DNA of 20,495 nt from a virus. The stretch's first letter is position 1; every line of letters begins with the position of its first letter. The position numbers and the translations under genes are program-made. The notes beneath the pieces are model-generated. The model had not been told where the DNA came from, searched no databases, and saw only the letters and a list, made by a program, of their open reading frames with translations. Location: IMG/VR virus record IMGVR_UViG_3300024261_000186, positions 1 through 20,495 of that record. The stretch is one strand, 5' to 3'. Positions 1,482-20,180 of the stretch are shown one piece after another.

Positions 1482-1485
1482 GTGG

Positions 1486-2043: not shown

Positions 2044-2052
2044 GGGATCCTC

Positions 2053-3923: not shown

Positions 3924-5101
3924 GTGGTCACCGTCACGGTCCCGAGATCAGGCCACTCGGTAGCGATCGGCTGCACGAAGGCGTCGCCGTTGAGAGTCAC
4001 GGTGACACGGCGCACGCCAGCCACGTCGTCGGCGATGGCGACCTCCAGATCGAGATCGTCGATGGCGACCCCGCCCGCCGCGTTGTCGGTGAACCAATCG
4101 GTGATCGCGGTGTCCACGTCGTCGCTCACGTCGCCCAGCACGTAGCCGGTATCGGGAACGACCGTGGCGATCACGTTGACGGTCAGGCTGGTCGCGTAGT
4201 ACCAGCGCACGGTCTCCTGGTAGCCGTCGGAGCGGGTCACCGTCGCAGTCGTCGAGCCGTTCAGGTAGATACCCGGGTCGAGATGACGGTAGAGCAACTC
4301 TGCCAACTCTTCCTCTTGTGCCGTGGTGAGCGTGGAGGGGTAGACGCAGACCGCGATGGAGTGAGGCTGGAGGGTGAGCCCGGAGACGACCGCGGCGGAC
4401 GCGGTCCGGTTGGAGACGCAGAAGGCACCCTGGACGTAGTCCAGAGCGAGGACGCGTGCTTGTACCGCGGCCAGGGTGCCAGAGCCGCGATTGGCCAGCG
4501 AGGACGCCTGACGGAGCCTGTAGGCGTTGTCGCTCTCCAGGTTGGTGCCGAGCGTCGCCGCCGCCGCGTTGTAGACGGCCGTCCAGCCTGACACCGGGGT
4601 GACGATCTCGTCGATCTCGCCGATGACAGCGGCCGTTGGGCCGTCCTCCGTGCACTGAACGACGGTGGTGGTGGTGCCGGCCAGGGGGATCGTGACGTCT
4701 TCCGTCAGCGCCCACTGCGCTGTGTCGTCCTCTCCGCCCCCGCGCACCAGCTTGCCGGTGACGATGATCGTCCCCGTCGTCCCGGTGATGATGACGGTGC
4801 ATGTCGAGGGCGTGGCGGGGTCCCGCTCCACGCCGCGGATCGCGCCGATATCATCCAGGTGGACCCCGGTGGCGTTGTTGGGGGACATGGAGTCGTGGAT
4901 CGACTGCGTCATCTCCGAGACGCTCCCGAGCCGGTCGGCGAGCACGTCCACCAGGATGGACAGCACCAGATCGCTATCCCAGTCCACGGCGGCGTAGCCT
5001 GCGTCGAGCAGGGCGGCGTCCACGCCGTCCCGCATCAATTCCGCTTCGTCTGCCGCCCGGGGGGCCACGTAGCCGGAGGAGTCGAATCCGTAGGTGCTCA
5101 C
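3920..5101 (-). CDS. Baseplate J-like wedge protein (gpJ)
   Basis: The 393-aa product starts at GTG 5101; a GAGGAGG ribosome binding site six bases upstream fixes this start, because the ATG further up is out of frame and stops at once. Residues 50-95 (LVDVLADRLGSVSEMTQSIHDSMSPNNATGVHLDDIGAIRGVER) match the N-terminal signature of baseplate J proteins, where 'A.G..LD.iG...g..R' is typical. Later segments such as SDNAYRLRQASSLANRGSGTLAA and VAIADDVAGVRRVTVTLNGD fit the family's central and C-terminal parts. Length is normal for gpJ. With the gp25-like protein it forms the wedge around the hub and transmits baseplate expansion to sheath contraction (family knowledge). Confidence 0.92.
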   Translation of the reverse strand: MSTYGFDSSGYVAPRAADEAELMRDGVDAALLDAGYAAVDWDSDLVLSILVDVLADRLGSVSEMTQSIHDSMSPNNATGVHLDDIGAIRGVERDPATPSTCTVIITGTTGTIIVTGKLVRGGGEDDTAQWALTEDVTIPLAGTTTTVVQCTEDGPTAAVIGEIDEIVTPVSGWTAVYNAAAATLGTNLESDNAYRLRQASSLANRGSGTLAAVQARVLALDYVQGAFCVSNRTASAAVVSGLTLQPHSIAVCVYPSTLTTAQEEELAELLYRHLDPGIYLNGSTTATVTRSDGYQETVRWYYATSLTVNVIATVVPDTGYVLGDVSDDVDTAITDWFTDNAAGGVAIDDLDLEVAIADDVAGVRRVTVTLNGDAFVQPIATEWPDLGTVTVTT

Positions 5102-5111
5102 GTCAGCCTCC

Positions 5112-5519
5112 TCATGCCAGCACCGAGCTGGCCCGGCCCCAGAAGTTGGCGGTGAAACTCATCGATCTGGCGTCGTGGTCCTGGATGGTTGCGGAGATGC
5201 TCACGGATCCCTCGTCTGTCGAGACGTCGGCGGACACGGAGATCGTACCCCCTGACGCGGTCGCTTGCACGTTGGACACGGAGACGACGCCCTTGACCGC
5301 GGAGATCTGCTTTCGCGCGTGGGATCGCACGGTGGCGAGCGGCACGGGCTTGGACGACAGGACCGCCACCCAGGGCATGCCGATAGACACGTCTCGCAGG
5401 ACCTCGCCCTTGTGGGTTGCGAGCCTGACGCGGATCCGCTGGGCCACCAGGTCGATGCCGGAGACCAGCCTGCGCCGATCGGGGAAGTCCAGGCCGTCAA
5501 GGTAGGTGTCGAGTCTCAT
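5112..5519 (-). CDS. Baseplate wedge protein, gp25/gpW-like
   Basis: A 135-aa protein with ATG 5519 overlapping the stop of the spike gene (ATGA). It begins with MRLDTYLDGLDFPDRRRLVSG and continues with VAQRIRVRLATHKGEVLRDVSIGMPW, the layout of the gp25-like/XkdS (DUF2634-type) lysozyme-unrelated wedge proteins in which R-L-T-x-x-GE is a recurring element. A second beta-rich half (residues 75-115) is consistent with the family fold. Position between spike and gpJ is the usual one. In related baseplates this protein contacts the first sheath ring and nucleates sheath polymerisation. Its stop codon overlaps the ribosome binding site of the gpJ-like gene. Confidence 0.82.
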   Translation of the reverse strand: MRLDTYLDGLDFPDRRRLVSGIDLVAQRIRVRLATHKGEVLRDVSIGMPWVAVLSSKPVPLATVRSHARKQISAVKGVVSVSNVQATASGGTISVSADVSTDEGSVSISATIQDHDARSMSFTANFWGRASSVLA

Positions 5520-6166
5520 GTGTCCGCCTTCACGACAGACGAGCCGACGTTTCCGGCGGACCCTGTCGTGGTGCTGACGCCGGTGGAGAGAGGCCCAACT
5601 ACCACCCCTGGGTGTATGTGGGTCGAGATCGCGGTCCAGAGTGCATTGATCTCTGACCTAACCAGCGAGTCGAGGGCTACCTTGTCGGACGCGGATGAGC
5701 TCCCAAGCCGCACGTCACCGGTCCCGCGGTCGTAGAGCACCACGGCGCCGCTGGCGTAGGCCGCGGACGGCAGAGGGGATGCAGGGGCCTGCACGCCGGC
5801 CAAGAACACGGCATCGGTGATGTCGAATCGTCGTGGGTCGCGGGGCTCGGTCGCCTGGCTTGCCGTCGCCTTCCACTCGTCGATCGAGCGGTCGCAGATC
5901 AGAGCCAGGCCCCACTCGCCATCCTCGAGGTCCCAGGTCACGGAGCCGGCGAACTGAACGGGGACGTTGGAGACCGGCGGCCGAGCCCTGGCGACCGTCT
6001 CGCCGTCGTCGTTCTGGACACGGTAGGCGGTCGCGATCTGGATGGTGGCCGTCTGCGTGGCGCGGTCGTAGGACAGCACCCACGCCGGAGCGGCGACCCT
6101 GACGGCGCCACGGGCAGCCTTGGCGGCCTGGTCTTGCACCTGGGCCTGCGTGGTGTTGCGGCTCAT
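5516..6166 (-). CDS. Baseplate central spike, gpV/gp138-type
   Basis: I choose ATG 6166 (216 aa), which overlaps the hub stop as ATGA, over the in-frame start at 6229, which would run 64 bases into the hub gene. Residues 25-60 (APAWVLSYDRATQTATIQIA) form the OB-fold beginning seen in gp138/gpV N-terminal domains, including the FAGSVTWDLEDGEWGLALICDRSIDEW region where 'GD.gl.l..drsid.W' is characteristic. Near the C-terminus ISTHIHPGVVVGPLSTG carries an HIH motif; in P2 gpV-like spikes an HxH triplet in each subunit binds a metal ion at the trimer apex. The protein is therefore the probable trimeric membrane-piercing spike. Confidence 0.88.
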   Translation of the reverse strand: MSRNTTQAQVQDQAAKAARGAVRVAAPAWVLSYDRATQTATIQIATAYRVQNDDGETVARARPPVSNVPVQFAGSVTWDLEDGEWGLALICDRSIDEWKATASQATEPRDPRRFDITDAVFLAGVQAPASPLPSAAYASGAVVLYDRGTGDVRLGSSSASDKVALDSLVRSEINALWTAISTHIHPGVVVGPLSTGVSTTTGSAGNVGSSVVKADT

Positions 6167-6972
6167 AGCGTCGCCCCCACGGCTTCCACGTAGAACTCCG
6201 AGCCCCGGGAGTCGCCCCGGAATCGGCATTCGGTGCAGCGGTAGTCCCCGGACACGCTCTCGGAGGTCACGCGGAACGCCCGCCCGGGGCGCATGGAGGG
6301 GTCGATCAGGGCTCGGATCTCCACGCCCGAATCAGTCCTCGTGGGGCTGCCGATCATGCCGGTGGTAGGCGTGAACAGGATCGCCTCCTCGCCCGTGGTG
6401 GTCCCGGACGCCCAGATCTGGAGCGTGCCGTCCCGGATCGTCCACTGGCGCCCGGTCATGCCGCAGAGATCGTCCAGGATCCCCCGCGCGGTCCCGGACA
6501 GGGCGCGACCGTAGGGGAATCGCTCGTCCTCTCCGACGTCGTAGGTGCCCAGCGGCAGCCCGAGTTCGTCGGCGACAACCTGGAAGACCTGCGCCGCGGT
6601 CTGCTCGGCGGAGTAGCCCACGTCCAGGTATGTGCCCGTGTAGGCGCTCCGGCCGTCCTGGGCCTCGACCACCAGCACGCGGTCAGTGGACTCTCTGCGC
6701 TCGCTGACGCCGTCGGGGATGGGCTCCCCGTGGAAGATGAGCCGCGCCACGCCCTCGCTCGAGTAGCCGACCAGGAGCCGGATGACGGCCCCGTCCTCTT
6801 GCATCAGGGCGATGGTGTCCGAAGCGGCGCCCGTGATCTCGATCTTGGCGCTGTTCGGGCTCGAGCCGTCGTTCATCTGGACGTCGAACTTGACGCGCAG
6901 GGCGGACAGTTCCCGGCCCGTGTCACCCTCGGTGCCAAGCTGGACGGTCACGAGTCGGCCGAACTGGGTCAC
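6163..6972 (-). CDS. Baseplate hub protein (gp27/gpD-like)
   Basis: A 269-aa protein with GTG 6972 overlapping the preceding stop (GTGA). Features typical of phage hub proteins are visible: an N-terminal beta-barrel start (RVKFDVQMNDGSSPNSAKIEITG), a middle segment TDRVLVVEAQDGRSAYTGTY, then a LysM-like or linker helix (TAAQVFQVVADELGLPLG) and a C-terminal barrel ending with YRCTECRFRGDSRGSEFYVEAVG, where 'H.gD.rg..w.t...G' is common in hubs. It lies directly upstream of the spike gene, and hub and spike interact as trimers in all contractile systems. The length is short for a hub but normal for small myophages. The exact family was not confirmed. Confidence 0.82.
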   Translation of the reverse strand: MTQFGRLVTVQLGTEGDTGRELSALRVKFDVQMNDGSSPNSAKIEITGAASDTIALMQEDGAVIRLLVGYSSEGVARLIFHGEPIPDGVSERRESTDRVLVVEAQDGRSAYTGTYLDVGYSAEQTAAQVFQVVADELGLPLGTYDVGEDERFPYGRALSGTARGILDDLCGMTGRQWTIRDGTLQIWASGTTTGEEAILFTPTTGMIGSPTRTDSGVEIRALIDPSMRPGRAFRVTSESVSGDYRCTECRFRGDSRGSEFYVEAVGATL

Positions 6973-7322
6973 GTCGTCACCCGCAGCCCGAGATCGTCGG
7001 AGTCCTCGTCCGGGATCTCGCTCTCGGAGTAGTACAGGAGCCGTCCGTCTTCGGTGCCCAACTCCTCGCGCTGGCGCAGGTCGCCGAAGACCAGGAACGC
7101 CCCGGGCGGCTGGCTGGCCTGCAGCACGCCGACGAGTGGGTCGGAGCGCCCGGATAGGCGGCGACCCTTGGCGATCGGGGTCATGTCCTGCGTGTAGATG
7201 TCCATGTACCAGGCCTGCTGACGGGCTCGCCAGGTCAGGCGGACGCGGTAGCGCGTGTCGTCCATGGTGTGGGTGAAGATCGTAGACGGCTGACTGACGA
7301 ACGACGGGAGCTCACGGGGCAT
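6969..7322 (-). CDS. Small baseplate plug protein (Pam3 gp18/DUF6983-like)
   Basis: The 117-aa gene starts at ATG 7322, sharing one base with the upstream stop (TGATG). The much longer frame reaching 8147 is out-of-frame shadow of the Dit-like and tape measure genes. The product begins MPRELPSFVSQPS and contains MDDTRYRVRLTWRARQQAWYMDIYTQDMTPIAKG, a pattern I associate with the small 'plug' proteins found between Dit-like and hub genes in simple myophage baseplates (Pam3 gp18 group): an Y.l.l.W......W.ldi.d..g.pi..g.rl.. motif. It probably sits inside or around the hub channel. Family membership is judged from this motif and position only. Confidence 0.78.
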   Translation of the reverse strand: MPRELPSFVSQPSTIFTHTMDDTRYRVRLTWRARQQAWYMDIYTQDMTPIAKGRRLSGRSDPLVGVLQASQPPGAFLVFGDLRQREELGTEDGRLLYYSESEIPDEDSDDLGLRVTT

Positions 7323-7906
7323 CAGGAAGCCTCCTCTTGCTCGCTGCCGTAGATCAGCTGGTACAGCCACGACGACGCGGCCTCTTCCTCGGCCTCGCTC
7401 ATGTCCGGGGTGGCCCCGCTCTGCTCGCCTGCATCCACCTCGGACGCCAGCCCGTCGGCGGCCGTCTCGGCGGCCTGGGTGACTGGGATCGTGACGGTTT
7501 GCGCCTCGACCACCACCACCTCGCGGAATGCCAGCGAGAAGCGGAGCGAGCGGTAGGCGCCCCTCTCGTGGGACATGGAGACCAGCACGTAGCTGTCGAT
7601 CTCCTCCTCGGGATAGGCCAGGGTCAGCGACAGGCCCCAGCAGCCCTCCAGGAACTCGACAGCGGCGTCCTCGCGCTCCTTGCCGGTCGGCTGGTCGTAG
7701 GTCCTGCCCTCGAGCGGAGAGCGGGTCACGGTGGCCAAGGGGGTATCTCGCCCGGGCTCCCTGATCACGGTGTCGGAGATGGAGGTCCCGAGTTCGACGG
7801 GGTGATCCGTGGTACGCGCCCGCAAGTCGCGCGCGTACCTGGTGACCGCGTCGAAACTCCAGGACACGCCGTCGGAGCGGGTCACGACGAGGGGCGCGGT
7901 TGCCAT
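7322..7906 (-). CDS. Dit-like baseplate protein
   Basis: A 194-aa protein with ATG 7906 overlapping the tape measure stop (TAATG). Residues 10-75 (DGVSWSFDAVTRYARDLRARTTDHPVELGTSISDTVIREP) match the N-terminal signature of the Dit-like proteins of myophages ('T.HPVE.G..itDHvi..P'). The central part keeps the usual elements GKEREDAAVEFLEGCWG and LVSMSHERGAYRSLRFSLAFREV. The last about 45 residues are strongly acidic and low-complexity (SEAEEEAASSWLYQLIYGSEQEEAS), perhaps a disordered tail. In related phages this protein forms the ring between tube and hub. Its place directly after the tape measure and before the plug and hub supports this. Confidence 0.85.
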   Translation of the reverse strand: MATAPLVVTRSDGVSWSFDAVTRYARDLRARTTDHPVELGTSISDTVIREPGRDTPLATVTRSPLEGRTYDQPTGKEREDAAVEFLEGCWGLSLTLAYPEEEIDSYVLVSMSHERGAYRSLRFSLAFREVVVVEAQTVTIPVTQAAETAADGLASEVDAGEQSGATPDMSEAEEEAASSWLYQLIYGSEQEEAS

Positions 7907-9531
7907 TAGACCTCCGCTCCGGCCAGGGCTGCCACGGCGTCGCGGTTGCTACGTGCCAGGGCGTCCTCGATCTGCCTGGCGATATCGTCGGCGTCGGCTT
8001 GTCCGTTGACGGTGACGGAGACTTGGTTGCTAACCGCGGCGTTGCTGATCGCTGTGCTTGCCCCGGACATTGGCGCCACTGACGGCTCGTAGGTCCCGCC
8101 AGATACGAACCCGGTGAGGCCTTGGATGGCGTCCGTAACGGCACCAATCATCCCCGTCAGGCGGTCAAGCTCGCTCGTTAGATACCGCTCGATCAACTCT
8201 CCGACTTCCGGCAGGACGACCCCAAAGGCGGACAGGAACTCCTGCGCGGCCGACCACGCGCCGTCGAAAGCGATGACGACAGCGTCGAGCAGATCGATCA
8301 TGGCCTGCAGCATTTCCAGGGTCGCCTGGCCCTCACGAACGAGAGCTCCCATGATTCCGGCCGCGCCCTCGTGCTTCTCGATGAACTCACCGATCGCGCT
8401 GGAACCACCCTGCCACAGCACCACGAGATCCTGGTAGGCAAGCGCGAGCAGCACGATGACGCCAATCACCGCGGCCACAGCCGCAACCCAACCGCCCAAC
8501 GCGGCCCCGGACACGCCGACGATGGCGGCCAACGACTTGAACGCCTTGATCATGGACAGGATCGCCGACGTGGTCTTGTAGGCGACCACAGCGGACAGCG
8601 CGGTAGCCAACGCAGCGGCCGCGACCGCTGCAGCCTCGAACAGGAAGCCGACGGTGGCGATGACGTCGATCCGCTCCTCGAGGGCGACAAGGGCGTCGCG
8701 GATGGCGATGATGCCGCCCTCGATCTTCTTGGCCCACTTCTCCATCCGCTGGCGGATGATATCGCCGTTGGCCTTCGCCCAGTCGGAGAACCTGCCGAGC
8801 ATGTCGTTGAAGACCGGAAGCAGGCCCTCTCCGATCGTGTTGCGGAGGCCGACCAAGAATGCCTTGGCGTTGGTGAGTCCGTCCACGAACTCCTCTGACG
8901 CCGCTGCGCCCTCCACCGAGAGCACCAGGCCGAGGTCGTGCGCCTCCTGACGGTAGGCCCGCAGGGCATCTCCGCCCTCGTTCAGCAGCGGCAGAAGCTT
9001 GGCCCCGCCCTTGCCGAAAATGTCGTTGGCGAGAGCCATCTTGGTGGTCTCGTCCTCGAGGCCCTTCATCTCTTCTGCGATGGCCTCCAGGAAGCCCAGC
9101 TGCCCAAGCGACGAAGCCTCCTTCGCGCTGTCTTCATCGCCGAACAGGCGGGTCAGAGCGTCCGCGGCCGTCCCTCCGGTGGTGGCCAGCTCGTCCGTGC
9201 CGACGGCCAGGCGGCGCAGCGACGTCTCGACGTCCTGGATCGACGCCCCGGACCTGTCAGCAGCGAACGAGAGCTCTTGGAACTCTGCCGTGGTGACGCC
9301 AACGCGCTTGGACGCCTTGGCCGCCTCGTCTCCAGACACCGCTACGGCGTTGACCACGGCTGCAATGGACCCTGCAACCAGCGCGATCCCGCCAGCAAGG
9401 ACAGCCGCGGCCTGCGCCGCTGTCGCCATGCTGCTCTTGGCGTCGCCGATGGCACTGTCGAACTCGGAGACCGCCGCCGTGTCGGCGTCAACCCCGAGGG
9501 CGACCAGCAGCTCTCGGATCGTGGTCGCCAT
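7906..9531 (-). CDS. Tail tape measure protein
   Basis: The 541-aa gene begins at ATG 9531 immediately after the chaperone stop. The N-terminus (TIRELLVALGVDAD...VSEFDSAIGDAKSSM) is typical for phage tape measures of the 'l...lGvd.~~~~~f~~~i~~~~~' kind. An Ala/Val hydrophobic segment lies at residues 38-66 and a second larger one at about 290-370, ending IGVIVLLALAYQDLVVLW. This late segment is usual in these proteins and probably becomes membrane-associated during DNA ejection. Between them the sequence is mostly helical. At roughly 1.5 angstrom per residue this length implies a fairly short tail of the order of 80 nm (an estimate from the general rule). Conserved location after the chaperone pair supports the call. 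Confidence 0.93.
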   Translation of the reverse strand: MATTIRELLVALGVDADTAAVSEFDSAIGDAKSSMATAAQAAAVLAGGIALVAGSIAAVVNAVAVSGDEAAKASKRVGVTTAEFQELSFAADRSGASIQDVETSLRRLAVGTDELATTGGTAADALTRLFGDEDSAKEASSLGQLGFLEAIAEEMKGLEDETTKMALANDIFGKGGAKLLPLLNEGGDALRAYRQEAHDLGLVLSVEGAAASEEFVDGLTNAKAFLVGLRNTIGEGLLPVFNDMLGRFSDWAKANGDIIRQRMEKWAKKIEGGIIAIRDALVALEERIDVIATVGFLFEAAAVAAAALATALSAVVAYKTTSAILSMIKAFKSLAAIVGVSGAALGGWVAAVAAVIGVIVLLALAYQDLVVLWQGGSSAIGEFIEKHEGAAGIMGALVREGQATLEMLQAMIDLLDAVVIAFDGAWSAAQEFLSAFGVVLPEVGELIERYLTSELDRLTGMIGAVTDAIQGLTGFVSGGTYEPSVAPMSGASTAISNAAVSNQVSVTVNGQADADDIARQIEDALARSNRDAVAALAGAEV

Positions 9532-9717
9532 CTACATGCGCCCCTGCTGCCGACGGGCAGCGGCTTCGCGCTTGATCTTGTCCCGCTCCAGCTTGTGGAG
9601 CGCGTCCATGGCGTCCTGGGCTACGTGGGCTTCGTAGACGTCGCCGAACCCGAGCTGGCGGACGGCAAGCATCCGCCCCGGGTCAACGCGTCCGGAGCCG
9701 TCCACGGAAAGGCGCAT
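9532..9717 (-). CDS. Second tail assembly chaperone frame (gpGT-like T part)
   Basis: This short frame can start independently at ATG 9717, twelve bases after the first chaperone's stop, giving 61 aa (MRLSVDGSGRVDPGRM...RREAAARRQQGRM), rich in charged helix-forming residues at the C-terminus. The same frame is open upstream to beyond the slippery site at 9822-9828, so it is more likely expressed as a -1 frameshift extension of the first chaperone, as in lambda gpG/gpGT. In that case the fused product is about 248 aa. The T part of such proteins binds tube subunits and recruits them to the tape measure (established for lambda). Independent initiation at 9717 cannot be excluded; no clear ribosome binding site precedes it. 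Confidence 0.72.
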   Translation of the reverse strand: MRLSVDGSGRVDPGRMLAVRQLGFGDVYEAHVAQDAMDALHKLERDKIKREAAARRQQGRM

Positions 9718-9728
9718 GGTCCACCAGC

Positions 9729-10277
9729 TCACTCCGTCGGCGGCCGCCTGTCGGGTGACAGAGCGGCCTTGGCCTTGGTTGTTGCTGCTCGGACGAGGGC
9801 GCCGAAGCCACCCAGCGGCCCGAAAAAACGGTTGTACTGCCCCACCTTCCACACGGCGGCCACGAGCTCGCCGTAGTTGCGCTGGTAGGCGGTGTCGAAT
9901 GCCACGTCCCGGGCCAGAGGCTTGCCGTCGCGCTCGGCATGGCGCAGCACGTCGCGCACCAGAGGCAGGTCGATCGCCTCGATGGCACGCCGCATCGCTG
10001 GCCCGCTGCTGGTGAAGTCCAGCCCGGCCAGGTTGGCCATGACCTCGGGATCGTCCATGATGGACTCGAGGTCGAAGCTGCCATCGGTCTTGGCTGCGCG
10101 CTTGAGGGCGGCAGGGACGGTCTTGACGAGCACGGACAACGCCGTGCCGGCCAGGGGGTCGATAACCGCTGCGGCGATGCGGGAGCAGACGCCGAAGCCT
10201 TCGGTCGGGTTGTGAGCCGCCACGCGGTAGCTGTGCTGCTTGCCGTCGGCGTCCTCGAGTGTGAACTGATGGAACAT
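9729..10277 (-). CDS. Tail assembly chaperone (gpG-like), 182 aa
   Basis: The gene starts at ATG 10277 with GAGAGGA about nine bases upstream and a 29-base gap to the tube gene. The 182-aa product has no recognisable catalytic motif; it is mostly helical (residues 28-62 and 95-145). It lies between tail tube and tape measure, the invariant position of tail assembly chaperones. Codons 150-152 are CGT TTT TTC, forming the -1 slippery heptamer T_TTT_TTC at 9828-9822. A -1 shift there leads into the open frame ending at 9532. The chaperone assignment rests mainly on gene order plus the frameshift architecture; the family itself was not recognised by sequence. Confidence 0.82.
   Translation of the reverse strand: MFHQFTLEDADGKQHSYRVAAHNPTEGFGVCSRIAAAVIDPLAGTALSVLVKTVPAALKRAAKTDGSFDLESIMDDPEVMANLAGLDFTSSGPAMRRAIEAIDLPLVRDVLRHAERDGKPLARDVAFDTAYQRNYGELVAAVWKVGQYNRFFGPLGGFGALVRAATTKAKAALSPDRRPPTE
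9822..9828 (-). promoter_or_regulatory. Probable -1 programmed ribosomal frameshift site T_TTT_TTC
   Basis: On the minus strand the zero-frame codons CGT TTT TTC GGG contain the heptamer T TTT TTC, which satisfies the X_XXY_YYZ rule. A shift of -1 changes reading to the frame of the 9532-9717 gene, which has no stop between here and its end. The expected product has 152 residues from the first frame and 96 from the second. Immediately downstream GGGCCG (from 9821) can pair with CGGCGCCC about 11 bases later, with one bulged G, a possible stimulatory hairpin. The frame arithmetic is exact; use of the site is inferred from the conserved behaviour of tail chaperone genes. Confidence 0.72.
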
Positions 10278-10306
10278 GGCGCGTCCTCTCGGTGGTCAGG
10301 CTACCG

Positions 10307-10756
10307 CTACAGAGCGGTCGCCAGGGAAACGGTCGGGTCTGGGAGCAGCACGCGGAACTCGACGCCGTCGCGCCCAGAGCCCATGCTGACGTCAGGGCGG
10401 GAGATGATGATCGCGTGGTCGCTCTCCCAGGTGTCGCCGTTGCTCGGGTCGGTGAGACGGAAGGCACGGGCCGTCAAGGCGCCGCCCTCTTCCACCTCGG
10501 TCCGCTGCTCGGCGCGGATCTCGGCCAGGTACTTGTACCCGGTGGACTCCGGATGCAGCGTCATGGTGACGATGTGCCGGTTGTCGCTGGAGACGTTGAG
10601 CACGACCGCGGAGCCGTCCACGGAGACCTCGTGCTCATCGTCGGCGGTGACCGGCGAGACGGTGACGATGGTGTCACCGGAAAAGCCCTGGATGCGGTAG
10701 GGGGAGAGGAAGACCTGGACGGCCTTCGGGGCATAGGCGCGGGTGGTGTCGGCCAT
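10307..10756 (-). CDS. Tail tube protein, DUF3277 type
   Basis: A 149-aa protein starting at ATG 10756, nine bases after the sheath stop. It opens with YAPKAVQVFLSPYRIQGFSGDTIVTVSP, and later has VSSDNRHIVTMTLHPESTGYKYLAEI, both characteristic of DUF3277-type myophage tube proteins ('y.p..v.v.~~G~~i~Gf~dg~~i~v', 'n.~~~it~tL~~tS~~n~~L'). Length is normal for a tube subunit. Position directly after the sheath gene is diagnostic. The product polymerises as hexameric rings inside the sheath and forms the DNA conduit (family knowledge). No odd features. Confidence 0.9.
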   Translation of the reverse strand: MADTTRAYAPKAVQVFLSPYRIQGFSGDTIVTVSPVTADDEHEVSVDGSAVVLNVSSDNRHIVTMTLHPESTGYKYLAEIRAEQRTEVEEGGALTARAFRLTDPSNGDTWESDHAIIISRPDVSMGSGRDGVEFRVLLPDPTVSLATAL

Positions 10757-10765
10757 GGGTCACGC

Positions 10766-11860
10766 TCACACGATGGCGGTGGTGGAAAGGTTGACGGTGA
10801 CGTCGATCGCGATGGCGCCGACGACGTTCTGGGCGCCGACGGTGAACCGGAGCTGCTGGGCAGTCCTGTCCGCGGCCGTGATGGTCTCGGGCGTGATGAC
10901 GACTTGGCCCTTCTCGAAGTGGCCAGCGGTCACGCCGGTCAAGGCGACCTTGCCGATGGTGCCCGCCACGCGGTTCTGGCCGTCGGCGTTCACGCCCAGC
11001 TTCTCGCCGTTGGCGGCGAGGGTGGCGTTCAGGTCTGCGAGCCCCTCGTTCAGCCGGGTCTCGAACCAATCGGCGGTGATGATCTGGTCGAATGCGCGGC
11101 TGTTGAGGTTGCGCCCCGGGTCGCAGTAGGCGTCGTAGATCGTGCCCATGGGAAGCAGGGTGTTCCCGTTGTTGGTGCGGGCGAATTCCTTCTGGGCCTG
11201 GGTCGGCGTGTCAGCGGTGAAGCTGTAGACCTCGGCCACGGGGCTGTTCCATGGGACGGACTTGTCGTCAGGGCTGCGAGCCAGACGGTTTCCGGCCAGC
11301 CCCTCGGCGCGTGGGGCGGCGTCCGTGCCGTGGTAGACGACGAAGACGCGCTCCTTGTCGTCGATGGTGGAGTAGCCGGCCGGCACGCCGCCGGTCGTCA
11401 GCCAGTCGGCGTCGGCGCTCTGGATGACCGTCACGAACTTGGAACCAGCGGCTTCCTGGGTGTCGATCCATCCGGAGAGGACGACGTGGTCGGCCGCGGT
11501 GCGGTCCTCGATGCAGATGCAGTAGAAGTCGGAGTTGTCCGCGAGAGCCGCGGTGAGGGCGTCGGCGATGGTGTCGCCACCCGCGTCGTCCCACTCCGCG
11601 ACCAGCAGAGAAGCGGGGCGCGGGGACTGCCCGAAGATCTCGGTGATGGCGGCCAGGGTCCAGGCGTTGATCTCGCCAGCGGCCAGGTCCGCCTGAGCGG
11701 TCACGACGCTGGTATACTCCTTGGACACGACTGCGCCCAAGGTGATGTCCTTGCCGACCAACAGGGGCCGGAAGGTGGCGCCGCCCGTGGAGAGCACGGC
11801 CAGGTTGACCGTGATGGAGATGCGGTCGTCGTGGGTCGAGGGGTCGAGGTACGGGCTCAT
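10766..11860 (-). CDS. Contractile tail sheath protein, DUF3383 type
   Basis: The 364-aa gene begins at ATG 11860, seven bases after the terminator stop. The N-terminus (SITVNLAVLSTGGATFRPLLVGKD) and the C-terminal region (FDQIITADWFETRLNEGLADLNATLAANGEKLGVNADGQNRVAGTIGKVALTGV) match the DUF3383 sheath group, in which 'q.i...WF..R...~~~~l~~~~~~~~kip~t~~G' is a signature. SPDDKSVPWNSPVAEVYSF lies in the middle. Presence of a sheath shows the virion is a myovirus. The protein assembles around the tube and contracts upon baseplate switching. Its C-terminus is somewhat shorter than some DUF3383 sheaths but retains the expected end strands (AIAIDVTVNLSTTAIV). Confidence 0.92.
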   Translation of the reverse strand: MSPYLDPSTHDDRISITVNLAVLSTGGATFRPLLVGKDITLGAVVSKEYTSVVTAQADLAAGEINAWTLAAITEIFGQSPRPASLLVAEWDDAGGDTIADALTAALADNSDFYCICIEDRTAADHVVLSGWIDTQEAAGSKFVTVIQSADADWLTTGGVPAGYSTIDDKERVFVVYHGTDAAPRAEGLAGNRLARSPDDKSVPWNSPVAEVYSFTADTPTQAQKEFARTNNGNTLLPMGTIYDAYCDPGRNLNSRAFDQIITADWFETRLNEGLADLNATLAANGEKLGVNADGQNRVAGTIGKVALTGVTAGHFEKGQVVITPETITAADRTAQQLRFTVGAQNVVGAIAIDVTVNLSTTAIV

Positions 11861-11867
11861 GGGTCAC

Positions 11868-12461
11868 CTACACGGTTGCGGTGATGGTGGTTTCGAGGTC
11901 GGGGTATGCGTCGGAGGACTGGGTCACCGTGGTCTCGATGGTGGCCAGCTCGATCTGGGTGCGGGCCGCGCCTGCGACGGCGTAGTGGACGAAGACGTCG
12001 AGGCCGTAGCGATGCTCGTTCTCGGTGTCGAGGAGTTGGCCCACGTTGGTCAGGGGGCCGTCCGTGAAGAACCCGAAGCGGGGATAACCAGCAGCCTCGA
12101 GCGTGTCGGCCACGGCGTCGGCGAGGGTCATTGAGAGCCGGAGCTCCTCCAACCACTCGGCGGTGTCCTCGCCGTAGCCCTGGATGCTGATGGTGGCGGT
12201 CCTGCGGCCCTTGGGGGTCTTCGTCGGGGCGCCCCCGCCGGTCAGTCCGTCGATCTGCTCGTCGTGGCCGTTGGCAGCCCCTGGGGACGTGACGTCGATC
12301 GTCAGGTAGGGCAGGTCCGGGCGTTCGTGCGGCTGATCTGCGAAGACGACCTGGACGGCGGTTCCGAGGCCCGCGGTCACGAGGGCGACGCCGTCAGGCT
12401 TGGCGTAGGCGGCCACCCATGTCAGCACGGCTTGGCGCAGGGTCTCGAGGGGGGCGGTCAT
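11868..12461 (-). CDS. Tail terminator / neck protein (LIC_12616-like)
   Basis: A 197-aa protein with ATG 12461 overlapping the previous stop (ATGA). Residues 30-60 (GTAVQVVFADQPHERPDLPYLTIDVTS) and 84-105 (KGRRTATISIQGYGEDTAEWLEELRLSM) follow the pattern of the phage neck/tail terminator family: 'v..~~~~~prP~~Py~~~~i~', then 'r~~~~sv~~~G~~a~~~l~~l~~~l', then GFFTDGPLTNVGQLLDTENEHRYGLDVFVHYA, which resembles '...~~~v~~l~~l~~~~~e~Ra~~d~~~~~~'. It is followed by the sheath gene, the usual place for a terminator. The protein caps the tail tube and joins the tail to the head connector (family knowledge). Confidence 0.87.
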   Translation of the reverse strand: MTAPLETLRQAVLTWVAAYAKPDGVALVTAGLGTAVQVVFADQPHERPDLPYLTIDVTSPGAANGHDEQIDGLTGGGAPTKTPKGRRTATISIQGYGEDTAEWLEELRLSMTLADAVADTLEAAGYPRFGFFTDGPLTNVGQLLDTENEHRYGLDVFVHYAVAGAARTQIELATIETTVTQSSDAYPDLETTITATV

Positions 12462-12808
12462 TCGTCCGCCTCCTGGGCCCGCTTCGCCAGCGCCTTGTAG
12501 TGGGGGATCGGCGCGTTGGTGAAGTAGGGAACGCTGGTCAGGACCTTGAACCAGGCGCTGCCGTCCCTGCTGATGAGGTCGGCGGAGACCTTGGTGTGCT
12601 GATCCGAGGTGTTGAGGGCCGTCTCGGTGTAGACCTTGGCGTAGTCAGACGCGCGCTCCCCCTCGGGAAGCAGGGCGATCTCTCGGCCGGACAGAGGCTG
12701 CCAGGAGCCCTGGAAGGTCGAGGCGGTCGGCGTGGACGTGCCTCGGCCCGCTGCCCAGACGGTGGCGGCGTTGCGGCGGAGGTTCAGGGTCTCGAGACCG
12801 AGGATCAT
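12458..12808 (-). CDS. Head-closure/neck protein (head-tail joining)
   Basis: A 116-aa gene with ATG 12808 overlapping the preceding stop (ATGA). Key elements are a beta-rich first half (RRNAATVWAAGRG...FQGSWQPLSGREIALLPEGERASDYAKVYTETAL), a typical head-closure layout with 'G.~qP~~~~~~~~lPeG~r~~~~~~v~t~~~L~~~d', followed by ADLISRDGSAWFKVLTSVPYF. I read this as a stopper-type neck protein that seals the portal after packaging. It lies between the gp10/gpG-like protein and the terminator, as expected. Family membership is by motif pattern and gene order only. Confidence 0.77.
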   Translation of the reverse strand: MILGLETLNLRRNAATVWAAGRGTSTPTASTFQGSWQPLSGREIALLPEGERASDYAKVYTETALNTSDQHTKVSADLISRDGSAWFKVLTSVPYFTNAPIPHYKALAKRAQEADE

Positions 12809-13323
12809 GCTGCCGACTCCCGGGCCTTCATCTCGACCTTGTGGGAGATGCTTTGGCGCATGCGGCCGGTGTGGATGAGCGGGTTCTGCCCCGGGTACTT
12901 CCTGGCAAGGGTCGAGGGTGCGTTGGGCGGCGCCTTGAGGTCCCGGATCTTGTTCTGGACGTCACGAGTCACCAGCAGCCCGAGGCGCCCCAGCTTGTAC
13001 TCGAGCACCCTGTTCCCGCCACCAGCCACCTTGATCGCCGCGTCGATGAAGGCCGCGATGGACTCCTCGATCTCCTTGTCGTACGCGTTCTTGTTGTCCG
13101 CCACGGTGGAGCGCAGGAACGAGCGCTCTGGGACGTGGCCGTCGCTGCTGCCGAACTCGTTGACCGCGGCATACCCGGCGAGGGTGATGCCGTCCTCGGT
13201 CGTCTCGGAGCCCTTGTCCTGGAGGATGCCGACGTAGACGCGAGGATTGCCAGCCTGGCCAAGCTCTCGTAGCTCGGCCATCAGGCTGTCGTACCCCATG
13301 TCTCGATCGGTGACTCCGGACAC
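12805..13323 (-). CDS. Neck/tail completion protein, HK97 gp10 or Mu gpG-like
   Basis: The 172-aa gene uses GTG 13323: GAGAGGAG lies five bases upstream, whereas an ATG two bases further up is in another frame and the in-frame ATG 13299 lacks a good binding site. The product contains PRVYVGILQDKGSE, AGYAAVNEFGSS...VPERSFLRSTVADN, then ALNKIRDLKAPPNAPSTLARKYPGQNPLIHTGRM in slightly shortened form. The elements 'yaa~nEfG~~~iPeRpFlR' and 'PPnapsT~~rK~~~~pLidTGrm~~si' are diagnostic for the HK97-gp10/virion morphogenesis group. It participates in joining head and tail. The C-terminal ARESAA overlaps the next gene's start. Confidence 0.9.
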   Translation of the reverse strand: MSGVTDRDMGYDSLMAELRELGQAGNPRVYVGILQDKGSETTEDGITLAGYAAVNEFGSSDGHVPERSFLRSTVADNKNAYDKEIEESIAAFIDAAIKVAGGGNRVLEYKLGRLGLLVTRDVQNKIRDLKAPPNAPSTLARKYPGQNPLIHTGRMRQSISHKVEMKARESAA

Positions 13324-13339
13324 ATCGGCTCCTCTCGGA

Positions 13340-15574
13340 TCAGACGAGGTGGGTGTGACCCATGCCGGCGTGGGCGGGCGGGGTCACGGTCACGGCGGTC
13401 ATGGCGTGCTGGTGGCTGGTGGTCGAGACGTTGTACTCGACCTCGATGGTGCTCACGGTCGGCTCGGCCGCGCCGTCCTCTTGGATGACGTAGAGGAACA
13501 GACGGGCGGCGGTGGTCAGGGCCCACGGAGTGCAGGTGATGCGCTCGCGGCGGCGGTCCTGCGCCCAGGTGAACTTGCGGTGCTCGCCGCTGATCGCGTC
13601 CCACAGCAGGAAGACGACGTCCTGGGTGGTGTGCAACACGCCGGCCTCGTCGGTCACGACCAGCGCTGTCAAATTGCCGTCGTTCGGGACTCGCCAGGCC
13701 TGTTCGCCTGTCACCGTGTCGTGCTGGACGGCGTTGAGGATCGGGGTCTGGGTGACCTGCAGCGCGGTGATCTCGCCGACGTACCAATAAGCGAGTTGGC
13801 CATCGAGGGTGTCGGCCGTGAAGTCAGACGGAGGCTCGACGGTGACGGCTCCGCTTTGCTGGAGGGAGCGCAGCCCGTCGCGGGCCGTGGTGTCGGTGTT
13901 GTCGTAGCCCTCGCCGCCCGCACCCGTGACGGTCAGATCTGCGCGAGAGCCAACGCCATCGGTATAGGTCCACTTCATGCCGTCACCGCCCCACGTCGCG
14001 GCCTGGGAGAGGTCCACGGCGAACTCGGGGGCAGGAACGTCGAAGCCGAAGGCGAACAGGTCGCCTACTTCTTCGTTCGCTGCGTCGGCGGTGAGCTGGT
14101 AGTTGGCGGTCCAGCCAGCCAGGGCCGAGGACAGGGAGACGTCAGACCACGTGGTGGTACCCAGGTCGTAGACCTTGCAGTAGGTGGCGCCCATGGCCTG
14201 CAGGGCGGCGATCTGACCCACCAGCCCGCCGCCGTTGGTCCGCGCGCCATCCCCGTCCACTGCCCACGCGCCGTAGACGGCCATGGGGAGCAGCATTCCG
14301 ATGGTCTCGGCGCCCGCTGCGTCACTCGAGCCTGCTGGGGTGATGGCGCCGTGGTCGTTGATGGTCTCCGCGGTGCTGCCGCTGGCGATGCCCGCCTGGC
14401 TGACGACGCTCAGCACCTTGTAGTTGGCGCCGTCGCGGATGACCAGGGCCACGTCTTCCAGGGCCGCAAGCACGATCGACGCGGCGCGCGTGGTGTAGAT
14501 GTTGCCCGCGCCGACCGCGTTGTCGCGGATGGTGACGGGGTTGGCGATATCGCCGATGGTGAGCCACGCCCACTCGCCGTCGTCGAGCCCTGCGAAGGTG
14601 TCGAGGTCGAACGCGCCGACGCCGTCGTCCAGGGCGTAGGTGCCGATCCCGGTCAGGGTCGCGGTGGCAGCGGCGGGCACGTTGGCCACGGCCGCGGTCC
14701 CGGTCAGCTTGGTCACCGTCAGGGCCTTGTCCGCGAACAGGGCCCGCGTCGGGGCGTCAGCTCGGAACGCGCCGTCCACGATGAGCTGGATGAGCACGGC
14801 ATTGGTGAACGAGTCGGTGGCGAACAGATCGACCACCGTGGCCTCGTTGAAGAACCCGGCCTCGATGATTGCCCGCCCGGTGGCGTCCGCGCTCAGGGCG
14901 TCAACCTGAAGGCTGGCGTTGCCGTGCTTGTTGACCAGGGAGGCGCCCGGGTACCAGACGATGACGCCGACGGTGGCACTCTTGATCGCCACCATGGCGA
15001 CCTCTTGCCCGTTGTCGGTCTTGGCCGTCGGGATTGTCTCGCTGGTGGTGTTGGTCGTGGTCGCCGTGGTGGTCAGGTACAGGAGCACGTCCGCCGCGCT
15101 GTAGCCGCTGGTGTCCACGTCGCGCTGGATCCAGGAGCCCGCCACGGTGCCGGTAGCGCCGTCGGCGATGGCCTCGATGCAGACGTGCGTGGCCTGCTTG
15201 GCCGGGGTGTCGCTGTCGGCCAGGACGGCCTCGCGGATGCCGTTGGTCGCGTCCCAGGTCGGGAGGTACACCAGATCCCCGGCCGCGTAGTCGCCACCGC
15301 TGGTGTTGGCGATAACCTCTTGGGAGCCCGAACCGCCCGAGGGGATGATGTCCGCGCCGTCGCCGACCGGGTCCAGATACAGGAACGATCCTGCGTCGCC
15401 CGGATCGGTCCTGATGAAGATGGTCGGGTAGCCGAGCGCGTCGCTCTGCGTCGGCACGCCCTCGATGGGCTGCCAGTAGATGCGCTTGCTCTGGTCGGCG
15501 AGCATGAGCACGAGAGCGCGCATGGCGCGGGCGCCGTCGATGCGGGGGTCGATGATGCGGGGGGGGGTGGCCAT
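13340..15574 (-). CDS. Large fibre-like virion protein in the head module, HxH C-terminus
   Basis: A 744-aa gene from ATG 15574, ten bases after the DUF4054-type stop. Residues 90-230 hold a beta-rich fibre-type module (DYAAGDLVYLPTWD...AVLADSD...GYSAADVLLYLTTTATT...VAMVAIKSATVGVIVWYPG). Other parts are Gly/Ala/Thr-rich beta regions. The last 25 residues have H721-Q-H723, H735 and H740-T-H742, the kind of HxH pairs that bind metal at the trimeric tip of T4 long tail fibre gp37. No catalytic motif is evident. Location between head connector genes suggests a head fibre or capsid whisker, but a tail or collar fibre is possible. A C9 run lies eight bases after the start. No family was recognised over the full length. 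Confidence 0.8.
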   Translation of the reverse strand: MATPPRIIDPRIDGARAMRALVLMLADQSKRIYWQPIEGVPTQSDALGYPTIFIRTDPGDAGSFLYLDPVGDGADIIPSGGSGSQEVIANTSGGDYAAGDLVYLPTWDATNGIREAVLADSDTPAKQATHVCIEAIADGATGTVAGSWIQRDVDTSGYSAADVLLYLTTTATTTNTTSETIPTAKTDNGQEVAMVAIKSATVGVIVWYPGASLVNKHGNASLQVDALSADATGRAIIEAGFFNEATVVDLFATDSFTNAVLIQLIVDGAFRADAPTRALFADKALTVTKLTGTAAVANVPAAATATLTGIGTYALDDGVGAFDLDTFAGLDDGEWAWLTIGDIANPVTIRDNAVGAGNIYTTRAASIVLAALEDVALVIRDGANYKVLSVVSQAGIASGSTAETINDHGAITPAGSSDAAGAETIGMLLPMAVYGAWAVDGDGARTNGGGLVGQIAALQAMGATYCKVYDLGTTTWSDVSLSSALAGWTANYQLTADAANEEVGDLFAFGFDVPAPEFAVDLSQAATWGGDGMKWTYTDGVGSRADLTVTGAGGEGYDNTDTTARDGLRSLQQSGAVTVEPPSDFTADTLDGQLAYWYVGEITALQVTQTPILNAVQHDTVTGEQAWRVPNDGNLTALVVTDEAGVLHTTQDVVFLLWDAISGEHRKFTWAQDRRRERITCTPWALTTAARLFLYVIQEDGAAEPTVSTIEVEYNVSTTSHQHAMTAVTVTPPAHAGMGHTHLV

Positions 15575-15584
15575 GGTCAGAGCC

Positions 15585-15986
15585 TCATGTCAGGATCCGA
15601 GCGCCGGTCTGGTAGCGGCTGTCCCGGATCTGGAGGTAGGCCAGGCCGTGGCGGCTCTGGCGGTAGTAGTCGTCCTCATGGGACGACGAAGCGAAAGCGG
15701 AGGAGAAGCCGTAGGAGACCGCCAGGTCCCCGGTACGGAGAGACGTCACGCCGCCGACCCCGGAAGAGCCGGCCGAAGCCGACCCGTCCCGGGCCTGCAT
15801 GGTGAACTCGTGAGCTGTCAGCCGCGCGACCGCCTCGGTAGTGCGGGCCCCGAACACGCCTGGCGTGATGGAGCCTGCTACGATCGTGACCACGTCTTCC
15901 ACGTCTGCGTCGCTCGTAGAGGCGAACTCCGGAGCGACGATCCGAAAGACGGGCAGGACCGCGTCGATGGCGGTCGCGTCGGCCAT
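15585..15986 (-). CDS. Head-tail connector, DUF4054 type
   Basis: A 133-aa protein starting at ATG 15986, which shares a base with the preceding TAA (TAATG). The start of the product (VLPVFRIVAPEFASTSDADVEDVVTIVAG) and the later portion (VTSLRTGDLAVSYGFSS...YRQSRHGLAYLQIRDSR) follow the DUF4054 pattern: 'f~~~fPefa~~~d~~v~~~l~~A', then 'v~s~~~g~vs~sy', then 'T~~G~~yl~l~r'. This is a known adaptor family of myophage necks. It is positioned after the major capsid protein as expected. It likely docks under the portal as a ring (family knowledge). Confidence 0.85.
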   Translation of the reverse strand: MADATAIDAVLPVFRIVAPEFASTSDADVEDVVTIVAGSITPGVFGARTTEAVARLTAHEFTMQARDGSASAGSSGVGGVTSLRTGDLAVSYGFSSAFASSSHEDDYYRQSRHGLAYLQIRDSRYQTGARILT

Positions 15987-18532: not shown

Positions 18533-18535
18533 GGA

Positions 18536-19135
18536 TCAGCCCTCCTTGGAGGCGCGGTTGTTGGCGAGCCAGGGATCGTCGGCGGGCGTGGTGGCGCCGT
18601 CGATGCGGTTGGGGTCGTCGTTGCGGAGCCCGTCGTAGCGGGGGTCCCGCTTGCCGGAGTCCTTGCGGATGGAGTCGAGGATGCCGTCCACGTAGCCAGC
18701 GCTGGACTCGTCGGTGACACTGTCCACGCGGGTCTTGGCGATGGCGAGGCGCAGGGCGGGCAGGTCGAGGGCGTCGTGCTTGACGTTGACCTTGTCGGCC
18801 AGCTTCTGGAGGTCCGCCAACTCGGCCGCGTCCTTGCGGTCCTTGTCGGCCTTCTCGGCCTTGGTGAACTTGGCCTGGAGGGCATCGAACTCGCCCTGGA
18901 GCTTGTCGAGCTTGGCCTGGCAGGCGTCGCGGTCGGTCTTGGCCTTCTCGAGTTCTTCGGTCATGGCCTCGGCGTCCGTCTTGGCCTTGTCGGCTTCGGC
19001 TTCGGCGGTGGCCTTCTCGTCGGCGTCGTTGCGGAGGGTCTTCACGGCGGCGATGCCGGACTGGAGGGCCGTTCCCTCGTTGTCCAGGCGCTCGACACCA
19101 AGCGCGGTCAGGAGGGCCGCGAGGGTCGGGTTCAT
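18536..19135 (-). CDS. Probable nested scaffold protein (internal start, 199 aa)
   Basis: Within the protease-scaffold frame an internal ATG 19135 is preceded by GGGAGAAGCAC, a ribosome binding site with six-base spacing. It lies just after a Pro-rich linker (TPPPPREKH). The product would be 199 aa: a short helix, then a long Ala/Glu/Lys/Asp coiled coil (about residues 35-105), and a charged C-terminus. This is the composition of phage scaffolding proteins. The layout copies lambda C/Nu3, where the scaffold is translated from inside the protease gene. Separate translation is inferred from the ribosome binding site; alternatively the fused protein alone acts as scaffold. Confidence 0.6.
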   Translation of the reverse strand: MNPTLAALLTALGVERLDNEGTALQSGIAAVKTLRNDADEKATAEAEADKAKTDAEAMTEELEKAKTDRDACQAKLDKLQGEFDALQAKFTKAEKADKDRKDAAELADLQKLADKVNVKHDALDLPALRLAIAKTRVDSVTDESSAGYVDGILDSIRKDSGKRDPRYDGLRNDDPNRIDGATTPADDPWLANNRASKEG

Positions 19136-19735
19136 GTGCTTCTCCCGTGGGGGGGGTGGCGTGGTGGCGTACCGACCCGCGGCGTCCGCGGAGTCAGTTC
19201 GGAGGGAAACGGTGGAACCCGCCCGGCCCTCTGGGACCTGGGCGAGGTGGTTGCAGTCGCGGCCGACCTGTCGGGCGTCGTAGCGGCCGAAGATCGGGTG
19301 CTCGCCTGGCGTGTCGTCCAGGGCCACGGCGTAGCCGCAGGAGACTTCCTTGACGCCCTCGTTGAAGGCGTCGATGGCGTCTTGCCGGCGCAGGGCGACC
19401 TTGACCCGCACGAAGGAGCCCTGAGCGTCCTCCTCGACGGTGGCGTCCCCGTCCACGTCGCCTGTCCCGTCGTCCTTCACGCTGTCGGTGGTGACGAACC
19501 CCGTCTTGGGGTGGTGCAGGGTCATCGGCGAGCGGGGCAGGGTGCGGGCAGTGTCCAGCACTGCGGCGCGGGTCACCAGCTCGCGGCGGATGGTGCCGTC
19601 GGGCTGGGGGTACTCGAGGATCCCCTCGCGGGTCGCGATGCACTCGGCAAGCACGGAGCCGTCCGAACGCACGAACGGCGACCGGAGCGGGCCTGCACGG
19701 TCGTAGCGTCGGGGGGAGGCGTCGGAGAAGGGGAT
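18536..19735 (-). CDS. Prohead protease fused to scaffold, DUF2213 type
   Basis: Family elements are clear: RYDRAGPLR...VRSDGSVLAEC...GILEYPQPDGTIRREL, then MTLHHPKTGFVTTDSV, EVSCGYAVALDDTPGE and CNHLAQVPEGRAG. The His of HHP and Ser of EVSCGY are the conserved pair of DUF2213 prohead proteases. A coiled coil fills the C-terminal half. The first standard codon is GTG 19672 (378 aa), but family-like sequence (SPRRYDRAG) continues upstream of it to the TGA at 19765-19763. No ATG, GTG or TTG lies there. ATC 19735 has GGAG six bases upstream, and CTG 19747 is another option. I give 19735 as the best estimate (399 aa). The enzyme cleaves scaffold and capsid during maturation. Confidence 0.88.
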   Translation of the reverse strand: MPFSDASPRRYDRAGPLRSPFVRSDGSVLAECIATREGILEYPQPDGTIRRELVTRAAVLDTARTLPRSPMTLHHPKTGFVTTDSVKDDGTGDVDGDATVEEDAQGSFVRVKVALRRQDAIDAFNEGVKEVSCGYAVALDDTPGEHPIFGRYDARQVGRDCNHLAQVPEGRAGSTVSLRTDSADAAGRYATTPPPPREKHMNPTLAALLTALGVERLDNEGTALQSGIAAVKTLRNDADEKATAEAEADKAKTDAEAMTEELEKAKTDRDACQAKLDKLQGEFDALQAKFTKAEKADKDRKDAAELADLQKLADKVNVKHDALDLPALRLAIAKTRVDSVTDESSAGYVDGILDSIRKDSGKRDPRYDGLRNDDPNRIDGATTPADDPWLANNRASKEG

Positions 19736-19768
19736 CGCGAACTCCAGATCGCTGCACGTCTGTCACGG

Positions 19769-19797
19769 AGGGTAGCGGAGCGGTGACAAGGTGTCAA
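19769..19797 (-). promoter_or_regulatory. Leftward promoter of the structural operon
   Basis: On the minus strand TTGACA (19797-19792) is followed after exactly 17 bases by TACCCT (19774-19769). The -35 is a perfect sigma-70 match; the -10 keeps T, A and final T. Transcription would begin near 19762, leaving about 27 bases before the proposed ATC start at 19735. It faces the whole head-tail gene train. An inverted repeat TGACA-agg-TGTCA (plus strand, 19784-19796) overlaps the -35. The promoter is a sequence-based prediction; strength and timing are unknown. Confidence 0.6.
19784..19796. promoter_or_regulatory. Dyad operator-like site over the leftward -35
   Basis: TGACAAGGTGTCA is a perfect 5-base inverted repeat with a 3-base spacer. 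It overlaps the -35 of the leftward promoter, a classic position for a repressor site. It shares TGTC with the other two dyads in this region. Function is inferred. Confidence 0.45.
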
Positions 19798-19820
19798 CCG
19801 GGTGTCCGAATTTGTGGACG

Positions 19821-19838
19821 TGTTCCAGAGTTGGGACA
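19821..19838. promoter_or_regulatory. Dyad operator-like site between the promoters
   Basis: TGTTCCAGAGTTGGGACA has half-sites TGTTCC and TGTCCC (reverse complement of GGGACA) separated by six bases. The same two half-sites recur in the dyad at 19916-19933. A related GGTGTCC-gaatttgt-GGAC element lies just left at 19801-19819. Together they suggest binding of one regulator to the divergent region. Function is inferred. Confidence 0.45.
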
Positions 19839-19883
19839 GGGAGAGAAATATCACCGTATTGGTATCTTTTTTGGGCCGAGAGC

Positions 19884-19912
19884 TTGCCTATGTTCCACTG
19901 CACGGGTATATT
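19884..19912 (+). promoter_or_regulatory. Rightward promoter for the small plus-strand genes
   Basis: TTGCCT (19884-19889) and TATATT (19907-19912) are separated by exactly 17 bases. The -10 matches five of six positions of TATAAT and the -35 four of six of TTGACA. Surrounding DNA is AT-richer than the rest of the window. It would drive the genes from 19947 onward. Initiation would be near 19918-19920, inside the dyad at 19916-19933. Confidence 0.58.
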
Positions 19913-19915
19913 GAA

Positions 19916-19933
19916 GGTGTCCCAAGGAACACC
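19916..19933. promoter_or_regulatory. Dyad operator-like site at the rightward transcription start
   Basis: GGTGTCCCAAGGAACACC is an 18-base inverted repeat with half-sites GGTGTCCC and GGTGTTCC (seven of eight identical) and an AA centre. It starts four bases after the -10 of the rightward promoter, covering the expected start point, so a bound repressor would block initiation. The half-sites match those of 19821-19838. Confidence 0.55.
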
Positions 19934-19946
19934 GAACGGAGCCGAC

Positions 19947-20126: not shown

Positions 20127-20150
20127 CCCCACCACCAACCCCCAAGCCCA

Positions 20151-20170
20151 GCCCGGGGGTCAAGCCGGGC
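20151..20170 (+). other. GC-rich hairpin before the second small gene
   Basis: GCCCGG-gggtcaag-CCGGGC gives a 6-bp all-GC stem with an 8-base loop between the first and second small plus-strand genes. There is no T-run after it, so it is not a typical intrinsic terminator. It ends directly before the AGGAGAGG ribosome binding site of the next gene and could affect its translation or mRNA stability. Confidence 0.35.
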
Positions 20171-20180
20171 AGGAGAGGAC

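Follow-up and report, generated by a model that had tools for sequence, protein, structure and literature searches.

A partly conserved divergent control region with a probable late promoter in an uncultured contractile-tailed phage

The late promoters of phage P2 carry an element near -55 and have poor -35 hexamers; gene O of this phage encodes the scaffold-protease and gene N the capsid protein. In P2 and its relatives a TGT-N12-ACA element lies between the divergent, Ogr-dependent promoters PO and PP, one of which starts the capsid-gene operon, and in Smp131 two divergent late promoters share a single TGT-N12-ACA element of 18 bp (PMC3931495). A phage accessory locus that runs antisense to lytic genes from a promoter of its own is described in PMC7067206. 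In CI/Cro-type immunity regions divergent promoters are accompanied by several dyads. The locus considered here shares features with each of these systems; a literature search returned no paper on it among the matches listed.

The window, that is the whole stretch of DNA analysed, is a single virus record 20,495 bp long (IMG/VR IMGVR_UViG_3300024261_000186), and the region of interest spans positions 19763-19946, between a leftward head-tail operon and a rightward cassette of small genes. As with PO and PP, a TGT-N12-ACA element (the dyad D2, below) lies between divergent promoter-like sites, one of which precedes the operon containing the major head protein gene. Unlike in P2, the opposing promoter faces an accessory cassette rather than terminase and portal genes, the -35 is a consensus hexamer, the centre of the element is at about -67, the element of a relative lacks the first T, and no Ogr-like protein was found in seven records that are possibly fragments. 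By analogy, the region may work somewhat like the P2 divergent late promoters, although we do not class it with them. The resemblance to accessory (moron) loci lies in the cassette, which is on the opposite strand within lytic genes, inside the leftward late cluster, and has its own predicted promoter-like site (9/12). In contrast to moron loci, its position and at least two of its gene families are common to a relative, where the two homologues are oppositely oriented as well (r_92, 59%; r_143, 39%), which argues that the cassette is not a recent single-gene insertion. Divergent promoters and several dyads recall CI/Cro regions, but no regulator gene adjoins the locus, and the Cro/CI-like gene of the phage lies elsewhere with divergent promoters of its own.

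The gene layout around the region is plain from the sequence (Table 1). A simple coding-score caller gave 26 ORFs in the window, and this region is the sole gap of more than 56 bp among them; it measures 274 bp up to position 19947, or 199 bp if the protease gene starts at 19747. Between 19672 and 702, twenty-four of the ORFs called in this way follow one another leftward, never more than 56 bp apart, and their families include a head maturation protease, major head protein, tail sheath, tape measure and baseplate wedge. The GC content is 0.538 over 19763-19946 and 0.678 over the whole record, in which the 184 bp of lowest GC (0.52) start at 19784, bearing out an earlier remark that the stretch is AT-richer than its surroundings. 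Rfam and tRNA scans were empty, and no terminator-like site was found in 17000-20495. A 12-bp perfect inverted repeat (19767-19778 / 19954-19965) flanks the region and is the only one in the window; shuffled sequences average 1.2 such repeats, and we therefore treated it as chance.

Table 1. Features in and around the control region (positions in the window; promoter starts are inferred)
Feature	Position	Strand	Remarks
Rest of head-tail operon: sheath, tape measure, baseplate and others	702..15986	-	phrog_205, phrog_8125, phrog_6
Major head protein, third leftward gene	16207-17340	-	phrog_264
Second leftward gene, function not assigned, 395 aa	17345-18532	-	phrog_33525
Head maturation protease, first leftward gene	18536..19747	-	phrog_530, E 1.4e-48
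Leftward (late) promoter, predicted, TTGACA-17-TACCCT	19769..19797	-	-35 at 19797-19792, -10 at 19774-19769; inferred start near 19762
Dyad D1, TGACAAGGTGTCA	19784..19796	.	TGACA-N3-TGTCA arms; overlaps five bases of leftward -35
Dyad D2, TGTTCCAGAGTTGGGACA	19821..19838	.	Candidate regulator site upstream of leftward -35, centre about -67
Rightward promoter-like site, TTGCCT-17-TATATT	19884..19912	+	9/12; -35 at 19884-19889, -10 at 19907-19912; inferred start near 19919
Dyad D3, GGTGTCCCAAGGAACACC	19916..19933	.	At inferred rightward start; possible operator, same half-site kind as D2
First cassette gene, 59 aa	19947..20126	+	No family match
Second cassette gene, 67 aa	20181..20384	+	

An earlier note on this DNA had proposed one leftward and one rightward promoter-like site, and both are present; promoter activity and start points are predicted in each case. 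The leftward site has no second match of its kind in the window, but chance alone would give one per record (one observed, shuffle mean 0.86), and one rightward-type site was found where shuffles average 0.1 in 3.5 kb. Judged by homology, the start codon of the protease gene appears to be the CTG at 19747, some 15 nt past the inferred start of the leftward transcript: the N-terminal 25 residues align with those of the protease of the divergent relative described below (L050), which has a GTG start at 13409. No obvious ribosome site was seen by eye before the protease start in the window or in L050, and both leaders are short.

All three dyads listed in the earlier note lie where it had placed them, with D1 overlapping the leftward -35 and D3 covering the inferred rightward start, also as described. 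The TGTCC/TGTTCC half-sites that were said to be common to the three are found in D2 and D3, but not in D1, whose arms are TGACA and TGTCA and which is probably a by-product of the -35 sequence. Counts of dyads of the same quality in the window are no higher than in dinucleotide shuffles (114 against 142.9 for D1, 1081 against 1124 for D2, and 37 against 48.8 for D3), so that the dyads as such prove nothing. The objection that dyads of equal quality occur elsewhere by chance thus holds for each dyad taken singly, but not for the half-site pair of D2 and D3, which is rare: TGTYCC-N0-8-GGRACA occurs exactly twice in the window, at 19821 and 19918, against a shuffle mean of 0.075 per window. Since this motif was defined from D2 and D3 themselves, its rarity is partly post hoc and the test is only partly independent. 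No exact copy is present in the 9.2 kb by which the near-identical contig L003 extends beyond the right end of the window, in the near-identical record G001 (TerL 99%; 24.5 kb) or in G003 (31 kb); G001 and L003 overlap in part, and so these motif-free stretches are partly the same. The half-site GTGTYC occurs four times within the 184 bp, a number reached in none of 2000 shuffles of the region (0/2000), and a cluster of four arose somewhere in 13/200 shuffles of the whole window. The half-sites are separated by 6 nt in D2 and by 2 nt in D3, which speaks against one rigid dimer on both. An RNA hairpin formed from D3 is not supported (z +1.0 for the fold of 19918-19960, a stretch that begins after the first two bases of the dyad). 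As single DNA strands, D1 and D2 fold better than shuffled sequences (1/200 and 4/200 as good, respectively), which merely restates their dyad symmetry.

In IMG/VR scans the control region is present only in L002 and L003, both near-identical to the window, and in IMGVR 3300005512_000209 (L050/L053), the only divergent record carrying the locus; the conservation of the leftward promoter and D2 is thus that of two genomes, the window and one divergent relative. The relative has the same gene order, with TerL, portal, minor head protein, oppositely oriented small genes, a divergent gap, protease, the 395-aa gene and major head protein, at identities of 49% for TerL, 64% for the portal, 68% for the protease, 78% for the 395-aa gene, 72% for the major head protein and 86% for the sheath. 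The leftward promoter has a counterpart there, TTGACA-17-TATCGT at L050:13367-13395, before the protease gene, and over the 30 nt counted from the leftward -35, 21/30 positions are identical at the same spacing (1/5000 shuffles as good). D2 is identical at 14/18 positions and again lies upstream of the leftward -35 (0/300 shuffles as good); the conserved block, GTCC-N7-GGAACACG, aligns without gaps over 19 columns, of which 16 match and 3 do not (score 13; 4/5000 shuffles as good). The dyad in L050 is an imperfect TGTYCC-GGRACA, with CGTCCG on one side, and its distance to the -35 is 16 nt rather than the 23 nt of the window, a difference of 7 nt that would place it on a different face of the helix. 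D1 and D3 have no counterpart in L050 (273/300 and 294/300 shuffles, respectively, match as well or better), and a reading of the L050 sequence gave no counterpart of the rightward promoter at the equivalent place. Conservation of the dyads, which the earlier note had proposed as a check, is accordingly found for D2 and not for D1 or D3 in this one relative. An unanchored alignment of the whole regions of the window and L050 is marginal (17/500 shuffles as good), and a MAFFT alignment of the two did not line up the promoters.

The window and L003 differ at 94 positions over 6.4 kb, clustered in 17.8-19.5 kb, and at none from 19461 to 20493, so that the identity of the region to L003 is uninformative. 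Within the protease gene there is a patch of dense differences (window 19009-19175) between these otherwise near-identical phages. TerL relatives L047-L049 (72-74%) and L044-L046 (99%) end before the control region, and L006 begins within the head protein gene and so is without it. An 18-bp palindrome pattern was found in 34 IMG/VR contigs, which is about the chance number by an estimate from an assumed collection size; by tblastn, only L014 and L035 among these 34 have late structural genes of the window type downstream of TerL, and these are the two near-identical contigs. Against GenBank phages, megablast of the whole window gave no match, and the tblastn matches were all distant, below 60% identity, in 34 records with the head protein, 87 with the protease and 571 with TerL, whereas the sheath gave none; TerL identity is at most about 35% among the matches listed. 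A scan of GTDB genome contigs with the sheath and TerL found no relative.

The cassette runs past the end of the window to about 22612 (equivalent position, from L003) as small, mostly overlapping rightward ORFs, of which seven were called in L003 together with one more open frame. Beyond it L003 carries, leftward, genes for an HNH endonuclease, a minor head protein with an intein, the portal and TerL, the last two named from their place and from similarity searches. With TerL, portal and minor head protein leftward on its far side, the cassette sits inside the leftward late cluster, and the protease-to-tail operon therefore needs a fresh transcription start here. The scanned cassette products of this lineage have no family match, except for a 116-aa product with weak portal (E 0.03) and head-morphogenesis (E 0.1) similarity. 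The cassette of L050 includes a small, weakly NikA-like protein (below cut-off), for which a promoter of its own, TTGACG-17-TATGCT, can be read on the minus strand at 12740-12795, flanked by a 10-bp inverted repeat (CCTTTCGTGG/CCACGAAAGG). Two further L050 cassette proteins (L050:12801-13124 and 10786-11097, minus strand) have N-terminal lipoprotein-like signal peptides by eye, as would suit a role in surface exclusion or host modification.

The most unusual feature seen lies outside the control region, in the minor head gene. Its intein of 318 residues (L003:5148-6101; window-equivalent 23572-24525) is covered to within 3 nt at each end by an antisense ORF of 315 aa (L003:6098-5151), the product of which matches a helix-turn-helix family (PF13936, E 1.5e-9) and, weakly, nuclease-like families (PF18741, 0.0055; PF04480, 0.023), as if the homing endonuclease of the intein were encoded on the opposite strand. 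The intein of the L050 minor head protein has the same first residues, is 175 residues long and is without the block covered by the antisense ORF. Three near-identical records have one intein difference each, synonymous in the sense frame and non-synonymous in the antisense one, which is too few to tell which frame is selected. An antisense ORF filling an intein was not reported among the literature matches listed, as far as their titles and the opening parts of their abstracts go.

No regulator gene is recognisable in the window, in agreement with the earlier observation that no repressor gene is visible in it; the neighbours of the region encode the head protease and the 59-aa protein without a family match. 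G001 encodes a 74-aa Cro/CI-like protein (17894-18118; phrog_2328 transcriptional repressor, E 1.5e-6; Pfam HTH_26 below cut-off) at an equivalent position some 21 kb rightward of the region, and HTH_3 gave only two matches, both below cut-off, of which one is this protein. A second divergent control region (G001 18118-18312; L057) lies between the gene for this protein and a ParB-like (DUF6551) gene, with divergent promoters TTGTCA-17-TATGCT and TTGCCA-17-TATGCT at G001 18165/18250, and, from its sequence, is to be preferred to 19763-19946 as a candidate early switch. No TGTYCC-N0-8-GGRACA with up to one mismatch is present in this promoter region (G001 18.1-18.3 kb), and the only two one-mismatch copies in G001, at 5523 and 17194, lie outside it. 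A 119-aa protein of G001 (12303-12662, minus strand; L056), encoded upstream of TerL in the leftward direction, has weak similarity to sigma-70 region 4 (Sigma70_r4 at E 0.0025, which is below cut-off, and phrog_351 sigma factor at E 0.0023) and is a candidate late regulator.

We consider it reasonably probable that 19763-19946 contains a regulated late promoter and, facing away from it, a weaker one for an accessory cassette, in an uncultured contractile-tailed phage. The leftward, sigma-70-type promoter would start the head-tail operon, with the protease gene first and the major head protein gene third, and D2, just upstream of its -35, would be the likely binding site of a regulator, which from this upstream position is more probably an activator than a repressor. 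The weaker rightward promoter would drive the small accessory genes that interrupt the leftward late cluster, and through D3, at its predicted start, the cassette may be repressed by the same protein or a related one; that a regulator exists, which way it acts and that D2 and D3 are linked is what we infer. It is unlikely, in our view, that the region is simply an AT-rich gap with two promoters of host type, both constitutive, and with every dyad there by chance. The dyad counts at or below shuffled expectation, and the lack of conservation of D1 and D3, are as such an explanation would have them, but it would have to accommodate both a D2 conserved in position and sequence and two exact half-site pairs in 184 bp where 0.075 are expected per 20.5 kb. 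A stronger form of the favoured reading, in which one protein reading TGTYCC/GGRACA would activate the late operon from D2 and shut the cassette from D3, and so act as a strand toggle in the middle of the late cluster, seems to us distinctly unlikely. The earlier proposal that one regulator coordinates the late and the rightward genes is supported in so far as there is a divergent control region, with the leftward promoter and D2 kept and in the sole sizeable gap; it is not supported as three related dyads under one regulator, given that D1 and D3 are not conserved and that the half-site spacings are 2 and 6 nt.

Two further explanations, each very unlikely in our estimation, would name a particular regulator. 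A P2-type late promoter, at which an Ogr-like zinc-finger activator on D2 would turn on the late operon and perhaps the cassette, has in its favour that D2 is the only one of three TGT-N12-ACA sequences in the window to lie outside called genes, and that Smp131 offers a precedent of one such element for two divergent late promoters (PMC3931495); three per 20.5 kb, however, looks like background, the relative has CGT-N12-ACA, the inferred starts put the centre of the element at about -67 for the window and -61 for L050, next to a consensus -35, and Ogr_Delta (PF04606) was found in 0/7 records, all possibly incomplete, at E values up to 1. Alternatively, the sigma-70-region-4-like protein could be a late activator or an alternative sigma factor acting at the leftward promoter, with the dyads irrelevant; the G001 protein that suggests this matches its families weakly, the promoter hexamers are ordinary and host-like, and the conservation of D2 would be left unexplained. 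Least probable of all, and highly unlikely, is a lysis-lysogeny switch in which a CI/Cro-type repressor on all three dyads would pick between the divergent transcripts. That a near-identical phage encodes a Cro/CI-like protein speaks for it, but the gene for this protein has its own divergent promoters some 21 kb away without these dyads, no exact TGTYCC-N0-8-GGRACA occurs anywhere in G001, two of the three dyads are not conserved, and tyrosine integrase (PF00589, Phage_integrase) and resolvase (PF00239) were each found in 0/7 records, all possibly fragments.

Retention of TTGACACC, the -10 and TGTYCC-N6-GGRACA in further relatives would favour the reading as a late promoter. The three proposed regulator sites are narrowed to one that is conserved, D2. 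If the toggle were true, late genes and an antisense accessory cassette would be switched by one protein. The locus is a real, partly conserved phage control region of an ordinary, known kind, and it pinpoints the probable late promoter in an uncultured phage lineage to which no GenBank phage is closely related.
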